Below, one piece after another: positions 2,655-6,804 of a stretch of DNA of 21,686 nt; positions within the stretch are counted from its first letter, which is position 1; the number at the start of each line of letters is the position of its first letter. The translations under genes and the position numbers were made by a program. Under the pieces are notes generated by a model. The model made no database searches, was not told the origin of the DNA, and saw nothing but the letters and a program-made list of their open reading frames with translations. Source of the DNA: a virus; IMG/VR virus record IMGVR_UViG_3300035698_011264, positions 1 to 21,686 of that record. One strand, written 5' to 3'.

Positions 2655-3036
2655 AAAAATAGGGCTAAAGCCGTGCTGGAATTGCGAAGAATTAGAACAC
2701 CTTGTGGTAACGCATGTGCTTGGAGAAATGCAGGTGGAGTGTCTCTGTGGGGTCAGGGGGCCTCTTGAGTCATCTCTCGAAGCATGTTATGTCGCTTGGA
2801 ACACCCACCCCTCACCTTGGATAACCATTAACGGCGATAAAACTAACTTACCAGAGACAGACGAACAGGTGTTATGCGTATTACAGCATTGGTACACGAA
2901 GGGCAAGAAAACAGCCGTGCTCTTTAAAGTTGACGAGGACGATGTTGACTGGAGAACCGCAGATAATAATTCAGAAATAAGTTATGACTGGAATGTAATA
3001 GCCTACATGCCAATCCCAGAACTGCCAGGAGAATAG
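2647..3036 (+). CDS. Lar-like zinc domain fused to a DUF551-type domain
   Basis: I chose the ATG at 2647 because AAGGAG lies at 2636-2641, five bases upstream; an in-frame TTG at 2617 has no such site. The 129-residue product begins GLKPCWNC, continues to VECLCGVRGP and then AWNTHP, which is the layout of Lar-family restriction alleviation proteins. The second knuckle is CLC rather than the usual CxxC, so zinc binding may be weak. Residues about 57-129 (PWITI, NLPETDEQVLCVL, then NVIAYMPIPELP) match the pattern of DUF551, ending in its typical 'W/Y-M-P-x-P-E-x-P' signature. Lar proteins modulate host type I restriction; whether this fusion does so is unknown. Confidence 0.7.
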   Translation: MCKKIGLKPCWNCEELEHLVVTHVLGEMQVECLCGVRGPLESSLEACYVAWNTHPSPWITINGDKTNLPETDEQVLCVLQHWYTKGKKTAVLFKVDEDDVDWRTADNNSEISYDWNVIAYMPIPELPGE

Positions 3037-3180
3037 ATGATTTTAGATCCCCGGACATTTCCAACGGTTCAGATAATATTATCCATCTTGGCGTCGGCAT
3101 CGTATTTTTATGTTGGCAATATCCGTATGACTATATTTTGGATTGCTTCGGCGGTACTGCAAACAGTGGTGACGTTTTAA
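3037..3180 (+). CDS. Small membrane protein (47 aa)
   Basis: The ATG at 3037 directly follows the TAG of the upstream gene, with AGGAG at 3027-3031. The product starts MILDPRTFPTVQIILSI and has two hydrophobic stretches (residues about 10-25 and 32-47) split by the short polar turn NIRMT, so it could form a helical hairpin in the inner membrane. The pattern 'DPRT-P-T-Q', then 'Y-F-Y-G-N/D-I-R', then 'I-Y/F-W-x-A-A' recurs, as far as I remember, in small phage proteins of unknown role near replication or MTase genes. A holin role is possible but unsupported by context. Confidence 0.6.
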   Translation: MILDPRTFPTVQIILSILASASYFYVGNIRMTIFWIASAVLQTVVTF

Positions 3181-3210
3181 AAAAAGCGGGCAGGGTGTTT
3201 TTTTAATTAA

Positions 3211-3321
3211 ATGCTCATGGAGCAGAAACGGCGGCGCGAAGCTGCTGAATGGTCTACTAAAAAAGTGAAATTTGCGATTAACCTTGCCCGTTTATATATA
3301 AAAGGAATTTATGAAAACTAA
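3211..3321 (+). CDS. Possible small basic ORF (36 aa)
   Basis: An ATG at 3211 opens a 36-codon frame ending at 3321, overlapping the first codons of the methyltransferase gene. The peptide is strongly basic at the start (KRRREAAEW) and would be a single helix. There is no clear ribosome binding site; the upstream bases are T- and A-rich (TTTTTTTAATTAA). It may be translated to couple into the methyltransferase start, or be a chance frame. Kept at low confidence because the 130 bases between the neighbouring genes hold nothing else recognisable. Confidence 0.25.
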   Translation: MLMEQKRRREAAEWSTKKVKFAINLARLYIKGIYEN

Positions 3322-4012
3322 CACGATAATCTGCGGTGATTGCCTCGACATCATGCGGGATATGCCGGATAACTCGGTTGACCTTGTGCTGACTGACCCG
3401 CCGTATGGGATAGGTGAAAGTGGGGCAAAGAATCGAAGTCATGGAAAATGTGCCGCACCAAAAGATTATGGCGATTATGATTGGGATAAAATCAAGGTAC
3501 CTGACTCGTGTATTACAGAACTCTGCAGGGCTGGAAAGAATCAAATAGTATTCGGCGGCAATTATTACGGACAGATATTAGGCGATACAAGCTGTTATAT
3601 CGTATGGGACAAATGCAATGGCAAAAGCGACTTTGCTGATTGTGAGCTTGCTTGGACGAGTTTCAAGTCGGCGGTCAGGCTCGTCAAGTGGAAATGGCAA
3701 GGAATGTTGCAAGAGGATATGAAAAACAAAGAGGTCAGGTACCACCCAACCCAAAAGCCATTAGGTGTAATGATGTGGATATTAGAGAAGTATTCGAATG
3801 TCGGCGACCTAATCTTCGACCCATTCTGCGGCTCAGGCACAACCTGCATTGCAGCCAAGCGGCTTGGCAGGCGTTACATCGGCATTGACATATCCGAGGA
3901 ATATTGCAACATCGCCCGTAAACGCTTAGAAGCTGAGGAAAAGGGGATAACTGTTAAAGAACTGGAAAAAGGGCAAAAGAGTTTATTTAAACCAGAAGGA
4001 GCGGGGCAATGA
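3311..4012 (+). CDS. Beta-class site-specific DNA methyltransferase (N6-adenine or N4-cytosine)
   Basis: The 233-residue product carries catalytic motif IV as DPPYG at residues 29-33 and the AdoMet-binding motif I as FDPFCGSGTT at residues 169-178. The order IV before I defines the beta class (Pfam N6_N4_Mtase). HPTQKP at 145-150 is the conserved segment just before motif I in this family. DPPY points to N6-adenine or N4-cytosine; the target cannot be read from sequence. The length is complete for the family, with a short middle region as expected for a small recognition domain. The start has AAAGGA at 3301-3306. No restriction endonuclease gene is adjacent, so it looks like an orphan that protects or marks phage DNA. 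Confidence 0.9.
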   Translation: MKTNTIICGDCLDIMRDMPDNSVDLVLTDPPYGIGESGAKNRSHGKCAAPKDYGDYDWDKIKVPDSCITELCRAGKNQIVFGGNYYGQILGDTSCYIVWDKCNGKSDFADCELAWTSFKSAVRLVKWKWQGMLQEDMKNKEVRYHPTQKPLGVMMWILEKYSNVGDLIFDPFCGSGTTCIAAKRLGRRYIGIDISEEYCNIARKRLEAEEKGITVKELEKGQKSLFKPEGAGQ

Positions 4013-4161
4013 AACCATTGGGATTAATAATGTTATCGGAAACTGTTCGAGGCAAAGGGGTATATGGACCGGTCCCATCCCGCTTGTCATCATTGATTTC
4101 CAGTTTTATACTTGGTTTGGTCTTGGGAATATTATTGTCTATTTTAGGAGCGTCATTGTGA
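4009..4161 (+). CDS. Small single-pass membrane protein (50 aa)
   Basis: The ATG overlaps the methyltransferase stop as ATGA, and AAGGAG sits at 3996-4001, seven bases upstream. The N-terminal half is polar with Pro and Arg; residues about 28-48 (LISSFILGLVLGILLSILGA) are one hydrophobic helix with Gly spacing. A 50-residue protein anchored by a C-terminal helix fits a membrane-associated phage accessory protein. No family recognised. The good ribosome binding site and tight coupling are the main reasons to accept it. Confidence 0.5.
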   Translation: MKPLGLIMLSETVRGKGVYGPVPSRLSSLISSFILGLVLGILLSILGASL

Positions 4162-4214
4162 AAAGTCAAAAGAGAGTTACGGAAAAGACACAAGGGAGTT
4201 TGTTTGATGCCTAA
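4158..4214 (+). CDS. Possible 18-codon leader-type ORF
   Basis: A GTG at 4158 overlaps the preceding TGA (GTGA) and has AGGAG at 4146-4150, seven bases upstream. It encodes only 18 residues, mostly polar and basic. Such a short frame would work as a coupling peptide rather than a folded protein. It overlaps the next small frame by eight bases. The ribosome binding site is real; whether the peptide has a function is not knowable from sequence. Confidence 0.25.
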   Translation: MKSQKRVTEKTQGSLFDA

Positions 4215-4293
4215 CCAAATAAAAAAAGAATCTCTTACAAAAACTGAGGCATTGATCCTCGGTTGCTTACAGCTTGCAAGCGGGTACGGTTAG
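4207..4293 (+). CDS. Possible 28-codon ORF at the end of the early operon
   Basis: An ATG at 4207 has AAGGGAG at 4192-4198, eight bases upstream. The peptide begins with a Lys-rich stretch and ends in a short hydrophobic helix (EALILGCLQLASGYG). It stops just before a 10-bp tandem repeat and the operon terminator. It could be a genuine last gene of the early operon or the remnant of a longer one. Low confidence because of its length. Confidence 0.3.
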   Translation: MPNQIKKESLTKTEALILGCLQLASGYG

Positions 4294-4297
4294 CGCT

Positions 4298-4323
4298 GTA
4301 AAAGTATGTAAAAGTATGTAAAA
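4298..4323 (+). repeat. 10-bp tandem repeat, 2.6 copies
   Basis: GTAAAAGTAT occurs at 4298-4307 and again at 4308-4317, followed by a third partial copy GTAAAA at 4318-4323. The period is about one helical turn, so a protein could contact the same face repeatedly. It lies in non-coding DNA between the last early ORF and the early terminator. It may be a binding site or simple slippage. Confidence 0.6.
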
Positions 4324-4349
4324 CACAGTTTTTGAAGTTTTGTTCTAAG

Positions 4350-4376
4350 CCGGCCCCTCGTGGGGCCGGTACTTTT
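4350..4376 (+). terminator. Intrinsic terminator closing the early region
   Basis: A perfect 8-bp G+C stem, CCGGCCCC (4350-4357) and GGGGCCGG (4362-4369), closes a TCGT loop and is followed by TACTTTT. It sits 57 bases after the last early ORF and before the late promoter, so it should end early transcription and insulate the late unit. Confidence 0.9.
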
Positions 4377-4454
4377 AAAGGGGAAACCAACAACCGCGAT
4401 ATTATCGAAAACACTCGTAATTAGATCGGTATTGAGAAAAAAAACAATTTTTAC

Positions 4455-4484
4455 TTGACATTTCAGGGATTAGCAGTATATATA
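4455..4484 (+). promoter_or_regulatory. Sigma70-type promoter, candidate late promoter
   Basis: TTGACA at 4455-4460 is a perfect -35 box. The -10 lies in the TATATATATAAAAT run starting at 4477: TATATA at 4477-4482 gives a 16-bp spacer and TATATA at 4479-4484 an 18-bp spacer. The start of transcription would be around 4490-4495. An A/T-rich tract (4431-4454) upstream could act as an UP element. It is the only promoter of this quality I see, and it precedes the whole packaging/virion operon. Confidence 0.75.
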
Positions 4485-4490
4485 TAAAAT

Positions 4491-4627
4491 ATACTCACAG
4501 CAAGTACTCGTGGAAAAGGCTAGCTGTAACTCGAAAACGGAGTTTAAAAAAATGTCAAGGACGATATCCACGAGTACAGGAGTGGGAACCATAACTAGGA
4601 TCGCTAACGGATTTAGCGGTCCTTTTT
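4491..4627 (+). ncRNA. Structured leader RNA upstream of the terminase genes (novel candidate)
   Basis: Between the promoter and terS lies about 137 bases with two separate folds. First, GTACTCGTGGA at 4504-4514 pairs perfectly with TCCACGAGTAC at 4567-4577 (11 bp), enclosing 52 bases that contain an inner hairpin: AACTC (4528-4532), loop GAAAACG, GAGTT (4540-4544). Second, an intrinsic terminator follows (4598-4627). Promoter, folded domain and terminator together define a small RNA or a terminated leader. It does not fit tRNA, hammerhead, twister or pistol ribozyme rules that I checked by eye. Possible roles: antitermination target (as in lambda qut/6S or HK022 put), attenuator or riboswitch, packaging-related RNA, or a DNA site for terminase. 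The fold is seen; the role is inference. Confidence 0.55.
4598..4627 (+). terminator. Intrinsic terminator ending the leader RNA
   Basis: GGATCGCTAA (4598-4607) pairs with TTAGCGGTCC (4613-4622) over 10 bp with a single U-G wobble, around a 5-base loop, and is followed by five T (4623-4627). It lies about 91 bases upstream of terS on the same strand, so the late operon can be expressed from the upstream promoter only by read-through or antitermination. Confidence 0.75.
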
Positions 4628-4717
4628 CTATTCAATTCAAGAGCAACCTTCAACTTATCGCTATTAACACGGCGATGTTCTTTCACATATTATACTTTGG
4701 TATAGGAGCTGTTTAGC

Positions 4718-5344
4718 ATGGCCAAAAAAGCTAAAAAAGCTGGCAAGAAAAAGACAACCGGAAAGAAGGCAACCAAGAGGAAAAAGGGAGATCCGAGCAA
4801 GCCGTTAGCGAACGCAAAGCACGAGTTGTTTTGTCGTGAATATCAGATCGATAACAATGCTACTCAGTCATATATCAGGGTTTATAATTGCTGTGTTAAA
4901 ACCGCCGATACAGGCGGTCCCAGGCTGATGGGAAATGTGGGGGTTATGGCTCGGGTAAGATTTTTAAAAGAAAAAATGATCTCAAAGCTGGATGTAGACG
5001 CGGCTCGTGTTATTGCTGAGTACGCAAAGTTGGCGTTTAGCAACATGGCCGACTATACAAAGCTCAACGATATGGGCGATCTTGTTCCGGACCTTTCAAA
5101 GTGTACTCGAGATCAGCTTGCAGCGTTGGAATCGCTTAAGACAAAAACAACGACGATCAAGACCAGGGGCAAGGGGAAGAATAAAGGCGTTACAACCGCA
5201 TCGATATCTACTGATTGTGAGTTTAAGCTGCATAAGAAACGGGAAGCGTTACGGGATCTTGGCAAACACCTGGGGATTTTCAAGAAGGACAACGACCAGA
5301 AGTTTGAGAACCTGGCTTCGGCGATACATGAGGCGATGGTATGA
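4718..5344 (+). CDS. terS: Terminase small subunit with basic histone-like N-terminal tail
   Basis: The ATG at 4718 has AGGAG at 4705-4709. After a Lys/Ala-rich tail (residues 1-28), residues about 30-90 read NAKHELFCREYQIDNNATQSYIRVYN...A..GPRLM.NVGVMARVRFL, the N-terminal helix-turn-helix signature of Terminase_2-type small subunits, followed by ARVIAEYAKLAFSNMADYTKLND, the typical oligomerisation/linker region. Terminase small subunits bind the packaging site and stimulate the large subunit ATPase. The large subunit gene overlaps its stop codon. The length (208 residues) is normal to slightly long, the extra being the tail, which would give non-specific DNA binding. The role assignment is strong; the tail is unusual. 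Confidence 0.88.
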   Translation: MAKKAKKAGKKKTTGKKATKRKKGDPSKPLANAKHELFCREYQIDNNATQSYIRVYNCCVKTADTGGPRLMGNVGVMARVRFLKEKMISKLDVDAARVIAEYAKLAFSNMADYTKLNDMGDLVPDLSKCTRDQLAALESLKTKTTTIKTRGKGKNKGVTTASISTDCEFKLHKKREALRDLGKHLGIFKKDNDQKFENLASAIHEAMV

Positions 5345-6804
5345 TAACGACAATTAAGAAGAGTGAGATATTAGCATTGATGGAGCATGGCCGGCGTGAT
5401 CCGGCGTGGTTTTTAACAAACTGTTTAGACGTAAAGCACGAATACCTTTGGAGTAAGATGCGAGAGATGTGCGAAAATGTCAGAGATAACGAACGGGTAG
5501 CGATCGGTGCCGGTCACGGCGTATCTAAGACGTTTACGATGGCTCGGTTAGCCTTATGGTTTTTGTATTGTTACTATCCATGCACAGTAGTAACGACGGC
5601 CCCGACCGGTAATCAGGTCAAGGGCTTGTTGTGGCGGGAACTTCGAAGCGCTCATGTTCAGGCAAAGATACCTCTTGGCGGAAACCTCACGACTACTATG
5701 CTTGACATGCAGAAAGAAACCGGCGTGATATGGTATGCGACCGGGTTCAGTACCAAACCTGATACGGTTACCCAGGAAGCGACCAGTTTTCAGGGTATCC
5801 ATAACGAACACGTACTCTTGATCTTCGACGAGGCTGCCGGTATCCTCCCCGAAATTTGGAGGGCTGCCGAGCATATTGGTGCTCCTTTCAAACGTTTTGT
5901 AGCGATCGGGAACCCGACGACTGCCGGCGGTGAGTTTGCCGCAGCGTTAAAGGATAAGACATACAAGCAGATGCGGATATCCGTTACAGATACACCTAAC
6001 TTTAAGCAGGGCAAGACGATCATCCCAGGCTTGTACGGTCGTGAGTACGAACAACGGATCCGCCTCAAATATCCACCCGACTCTAACGGTGAACCATCCG
6101 ACGAGTATAAGGTCAGGGTTCTTGGTATGGTATCTGCTAAACATGCGGAGGGCGCTTACTACGCAAAGACATTTAAAGAGCTTCGCAAGCAGGGCAGGGT
6201 TGGAGTTGTAAAGCACGACCCAAACATCCGGGTATTCCCGGTTTGGGATGTTGGCTACACGACCGCGATCTGGTTTGTTCAGCCTGACGGGACCGATTTC
6301 AGGATCATAAAATACTATGAAGATTCAGGGCTTGCTATCAAGGATTACGCAAAGTTATTCGACGAGCTTAGACGAGATGAGGGGTATCATTTTGGCGATA
6401 ACATTGTCCCTTGTGATATGGACAGCAACGCACAGAAGATCATCACTGGTGATACGGCATTAACAACCCTGCGTGATCTAGGCTATACAGCCGAGCCATT
6501 GAAGCAGGAATCCAGAGTAAACGAGGGGATTCTAAGAACGACCAGGTTTTTACATCGATGTTGGTTTGACGAGAAAAACTGCGAGATCGGTCTTGAACGA
6601 CTTGAGGGGTATTGTGAGGGTAAAAACAGACAGATGAGTACCGAAGATCGCCCGGTGTATACCGGGACACCTGAAAAGAATGGATGCGATCATGGCGCAG
6701 ACGCTTTCAGGTATGTCAGTAAAGCAGCCGAAGAGGATAAATTCGACAAGACATCTGGTATGACAAAGGCACAATGGAAAAAACTTAAAGAGCAATACTC
6801 ATAG
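5341..6804 (+). CDS. terL: Terminase large subunit (packaging ATPase and nuclease)
   Basis: The ATG overlaps the terS stop as ATGA. The ATPase domain shows Walker A GAGHGVSKT at residues 56-64, Walker B VLLIFDEA at 158-165 with catalytic Asp163-Glu164, and the coupling motif GNPT at 190-193. The C-terminal RNase H-like nuclease has the expected acidic residues: Asp303 in FPVWDVGYT, Asp359/361 in CDMDS, and Asp454 in HGADAF. At 487 residues it is full length. It pumps DNA into the prohead through the portal and cuts concatemers. The overall pattern matches terminases of P22-like and related environmental podoviruses. The last 25 residues are charged and probably contact the portal. Confidence 0.93.
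   Translation: MITTIKKSEILALMEHGRRDPAWFLTNCLDVKHEYLWSKMREMCENVRDNERVAIGAGHGVSKTFTMARLALWFLYCYYPCTVVTTAPTGNQVKGLLWRELRSAHVQAKIPLGGNLTTTMLDMQKETGVIWYATGFSTKPDTVTQEATSFQGIHNEHVLLIFDEAAGILPEIWRAAEHIGAPFKRFVAIGNPTTAGGEFAAALKDKTYKQMRISVTDTPNFKQGKTIIPGLYGREYEQRIRLKYPPDSNGEPSDEYKVRVLGMVSAKHAEGAYYAKTFKELRKQGRVGVVKHDPNIRVFPVWDVGYTTAIWFVQPDGTDFRIIKYYEDSGLAIKDYAKLFDELRRDEGYHFGDNIVPCDMDSNAQKIITGDTALTTLRDLGYTAEPLKQESRVNEGILRTTRFLHRCWFDEKNCEIGLERLEGYCEGKNRQMSTEDRPVYTGTPEKNGCDHGADAFRYVSKAAEEDKFDKTSGMTKAQWKKLKEQYS

Follow-up and report, generated by a model that had tools for sequence, protein, structure and literature searches.

The stretch ahead of the packaging genes of this uncultured phage is best explained as a leader serving the packaging (late) operon, on which most transcripts would be stopped until read-through is permitted; we place the probability of this reading at about 0.5. 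The window, that is, the whole stretch of DNA analysed, is the entire viral record of 21,686 bases. Between the methyltransferase side and terS it carries a promoter, a folded leader and an intrinsic terminator, in that order, and this layout recurs in L002, the closest relative by TerL that retains upstream sequence. We infer a working promoter, efficient termination and some agent that regulates read-through.

The genes to the left are phage genes for a replication-initiation-like protein and a DNA methyltransferase, while those to the right encode, in order, TerS (phrog_51), TerL, a P22-like portal and the major head protein. The stretch taken as gene-free measures 342 nt. An earlier note, made from the sequence, had called it free of genes; the next gene is indeed terS, but a candidate ORF preceded by GGAG lies inside. 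A likely terminator of the upstream operon precedes the leader (Table 1). No DNA relative of the window was found in the phage-record search. Elsewhere in the window, positions 1985–2263 encode a Cys-rich repeat protein (YCSDCSYCFGCSYC...) with a weak match to phrog_15341, a phrog of unknown function, and another perfect 11-bp inverted repeat with a short loop lies near the left end (48–74).

Table 1 Features of the leader region and its surroundings (window coordinates unless a relative is named)
Feature	Position	Strand	Basis or detail
Tandem 10-bp repeat CTGTAAAAGTATGTAAAAGTA, upstream of promoter	4296–4316	+	20/21 identical to L002 837–857
GC-rich hairpin then TACTTTT, likely upstream-operon terminator	4349–4370	+	−21.8 kcal/mol, z −3.3
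A- and T-tracts abutting −35, UP-element-like	4440–4454	+	sequence
−35 element TTGACA, perfect	4455–4460	+	sequence
A/T-rich −10 region: TATATA (4477 or 4479), TATACT (4490)	4477–4495	+	sequence
Dyad ACAGC (4497–4501) and GCTGT (4523–4527), possible pseudoknot with the 11-bp stem	4497–4527	+	
Folded RNA: 11-bp closing stem 4504–4514/4567–4577, inner hairpin 4528–4532/4540–4544	4504–4577	+	folding
Possible 54-aa ORF, through terminator to terS	4552–4716	+	GGAG 9 nt ahead of ATG
Intrinsic terminator: 11-pair hairpin (4597–4623), then TTTTTCT	4597–4628	+	
TTAACA-18-TATTAT, possible second promoter past the terminator and ahead of terS	4664–4693	+	10/12 matches
terS, terminase small subunit	4718–5344	+	phrog_51, E 8e-27; Terminase_2
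terL, terminase large subunit	5341–6804	+	phrog_2
Pre-portal element copies	L044 4990–5105, L049 6570–6690, L041 7333–7434, L053 3758–3875, L056 1374–1467, L046 2934–3059		

The promoter proposed in the earlier note stands in its −35 element, while its −10 is weak, with TATATA matching at 4/6 positions and a spacing of 16 or 18 nt; the promoter is therefore absent from the stock scan listing. TATACT (4490–4495) is a better −10, but it lies 29 nt away from the −35. Owing to the weak −10, the start site is uncertain, at about 4489–4502. The A- and T-tracts may function as an UP element, and TATACT, just 3′ of the first −10, is a conceivable pause element, which we offer only as a lead. Further upstream, CTGTAAAAGTATGTAAAAGTA is common to the window and L002, and no other match with fewer than four mismatches was detected in 28 relatives (0.59 Mb, both strands counted). 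A repeat similar to it is found at L064 3147–3166, next to the gene of a small DNA-binding-like protein.

The perfect closing stem around an inner hairpin, described previously, is confirmed as an exact 11-bp inverted repeat that encloses a 5-bp hairpin. When the 342-nt stretch was shuffled 2000 times, 14 shuffles contained an 11-bp inverted repeat of any sequence with a loop of up to 80 nt, which makes it uncommon, not extreme. The fold as a whole is well past chance: the RNA at 4492–4628 has a folding energy of −44 kcal/mol (z −4.46) where its shuffles average −27.8, and low z values were also obtained for the stem part by itself (−3.96) and for 4490–4596, from which the terminator is excluded (−3.73). 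The terminator alone scores z −4.66 and is the first-listed plus-strand match of the stock terminator scan in 3000–6000, in agreement with the intrinsic terminator claimed ahead of terS.

The absence of a match to known RNAs likewise held: no Rfam family scored above its curated threshold in 4300–4800, none even at E ≤ 5, and ARAGORN reported neither tRNA nor tmRNA. A covariance model built on the single window RNA (R1) recovered only itself from 67 sources, the next match having an E of 1.2, and the exact 11-bp stem pattern had zero matches in viral contigs. Compensatory changes in the stem, suggested earlier as a check, were not shown because no alignable homologue of the window RNA was found.

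Searches with TerL returned L002 (78% identity) and L003 (80%), followed by a group at 55–63%; L003 is cut off inside terL, and the single genome scanned with TerL gave a distant match only. At the equivalent position, L002 carries TTGACA-16-TATTAT (913–940) and a terminator hairpin (−21.6 kcal/mol) that ends near 1083; the hairpin is visible in the fold and was missed by the stock scan because its stem has a bulge. The promoter-leader-terminator unit thus spans 171 nt in L002 (913–1083) versus 173 nt in the window, and the earlier view of a self-contained unit ahead of terS is supported by this recurrence. The L002 terminator is followed by genes for an HNH endonuclease and for a TerS from a different family (phrog_309). 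Only ~51 nt, with no promoter match, separate the terminator from the next ATG, and an L002 ORF ends at that next start codon. Rfam gave one chance match on L002.

The two leaders differ in sequence and fold. Plain local alignment was not significant (p 0.077), and the L002 leader minus its terminator folds at chance level (z 0.31). What they share is two paired elements arranged in pseudoknot order, a CGTGG/CCACG helix and a CAGC/GCTG dyad, the window's ACAGC/GCTGT having TCAGC/GCTGA as its L002 counterpart. The stem identity of these elements was reached by 0 of 20,000 L002 shuffles, a statistic chosen post hoc. The pattern TTGACATTT..CGTGGNAAAR occurs in 71 viral stretches, with paired arms in the window and L002 only. 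A pseudoknotted RNA common to both was considered and set aside: the dyads are significant, but the first L002 arm falls after the −10 and ahead of the expected start site, and may therefore be a DNA feature, so that it is not claimed as RNA.

Among further relatives, sigma70-like promoters lie upstream of terS in L042, L044, L048, L049, L052 and L067. In L067 the region before terS comprises a short ORF and a strongly folded noncoding stretch of ~250 nt (520–768, z −4.06) that ends in a hairpin with a T-run; the folded stretch has no Rfam match. In L042, L044 and L048 the promoter is present and no terminator was found ahead of terS. A terminator-like hairpin with a T-run stands no more than ~30 nt from the portal start codon in L040, L043, L044, L045, L046, L047, L049 and L053. 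These hairpins may terminate transcription, and since a promoter would hardly fit behind them, transcription of the portal gene in these roughly eight relatives probably reads through them.

Some of the pre-portal terminator-like hairpins are preceded by a conserved hairpin, for which we built a model (R2). The conserved noncoding element consists of the GTAAGTTCGGACTTAC hairpin, a boxA-like CTCTTCACCATAAGAATA and the terminator, lies immediately 5′ of the portal start in most of its six copies, and has no Rfam match. It shares with the window leader the phage group, an upstream promoter and a terminator fronting a late gene; it differs in lying between terL and portal, the window leader being placed before terS. 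Membership of the window RNA in this element was rejected, the best plus-strand score of 4300–4800 against R2 being 4.7 bits. ACCATAA, just 5′ of the window terminator, also occurs in the pre-portal element and, at only 7 bases, was treated as chance. In five relatives the terL-portal gap also holds a TTGACA/TATAAT-like promoter into which the beginning of a small ORF extends (L046 2370, L047 4221, L052 2593, L053 2991, L056 1237); this ORF often contains KK[DE]LT, with a terminator downstream.

Taken together, a model for an attenuated leader emerges. A host-type sigma70 promoter would fire ahead of the packaging operon, RNA polymerase would make a folded leader of about 125–140 nt, and the intrinsic terminator would stop most transcripts; read-through into terS, terL and the structural genes might then be permitted by an antiterminator protein, by the leader RNA itself, or by translation through the terminator. 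The model is favored by the presence of promoter, fold and terminator each, by an L002 layout kept despite the different TerS family and the unalignable leader, by the ~51 nt free of promoter matches that follow the L002 terminator, and by the relatives' pre-terS promoters, the folded leader of L067 and the pre-portal hairpins. Counted against it are the fold, which is not conserved in L002, the lack of a second member for R1, the failure to recognise an antiterminator gene among the ORFs scanned and the three relatives with a promoter and no terminator found before terS. The possible promoter past the terminator would, if used, make read-through unnecessary. Antitermination, as proposed in the earlier note, gains indirect support from the pre-portal hairpins of about eight relatives.

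That possible promoter, just ahead of terS, bears directly on a different account, in which the stretch is a stand-alone gene for a small noncoding RNA of ~130 nt acting in trans, with terS served by its own downstream promoter. The fold and the strong terminator suit such a gene, as does the promoter match, although matches of its type in the region are near the shuffle mean and not above chance expectation. Against it, no homologous RNA was found in the 67 sources or the phage records, the exact stem pattern had no match in viral contigs, and L002 lacks both a significant fold and a further promoter match ahead of its next gene; we regard a trans-acting RNA as rather unlikely. The elements common to both phages, namely the dyad with the CGTGG/CCACG core and the 21-nt motif, could instead mark a DNA-level site, at which the repeats of 4497–4577 and the 21-nt tandem repeat bind a regulator or the terminase (an operator, or pac/cos) and the fold is a by-product. 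The L002 arm that would fall outside the RNA fits this explanation, which we nevertheless judge distinctly improbable: in both phages the repeats sit between a promoter and a terminator that share one strand, and the window has a P22-like portal. P22-type phages package by the headful mechanism from a pac site inside terS.

The ORF that crosses the terminator suggests that the leader may be translated, yielding a small gene product or leader peptide, with translation either coupled to terS or disrupting the terminator. Its ribosome-binding-like GGAG, an open frame across the terminator, a stop 1 nt ahead of terS and the L002 ORF ending at the next start codon agree with translation, and its codon score of 0.14 is ambiguous, between genes (0.26) and the antisense control (0.02). 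A homologue search of phage records returned nothing at E ≤ 1 for the ORF, its longer form (4510–4716) matches no PHROG, and we consider translation very unlikely to be the main explanation. The hardest to credit is the ordinary one, a plain promoter and an insulating terminator, unregulated, with a chance hairpin between them; the weak −10, the unconserved L002 fold and the frequency of 11-bp repeats among shuffles accord with it, whereas the whole-RNA z value and the repetition of the promoter-terminator layout among relatives do not.

The attenuated leader has precedents. Lambda-like phages are well known for terminated leaders ahead of their late genes, and the likeness to lambda pR′-6S RNA-tR′ (and to P22 and other lambdoid late operons) drawn in the earlier note extends, at the sequence level only, to a sigma70-like promoter, a short terminated leader with an intrinsic terminator, and late genes next, as well as to the module order terS-terL-portal and the P22-like portal. 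No Q-like gene was recognised among the window ORFs scanned (part of the ORFs, in a record that may be a fragment). The comparison with HK022 putL/putR proved loose. Put RNA, of about 70 nt, folds into two adjacent stem-loops (PMC9378689); the folded RNA of the window, at 74 nt, is similar in size and also near a phage promoter, but it forms a single long stem enclosing an inner hairpin and so lacks the two-stem-loop shape of put. Put moreover acts in early operons, and the comparison is one of size and shape.

A broader and tentative reading, which we hold to be unlikely as it stands, is that the window belongs to a new phage group whose late genes would be run by read-through of terminators near late-gene starts, with leader RNAs of differing sequence as antitermination or attenuation elements; the terminator would lie before terS in the window and L002, and before portal in others. 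No close relative of the window's phage group turned up in the phage records searched, and if read-through is regulated, the leaders of this group would constitute a new set of candidate antitermination RNAs.
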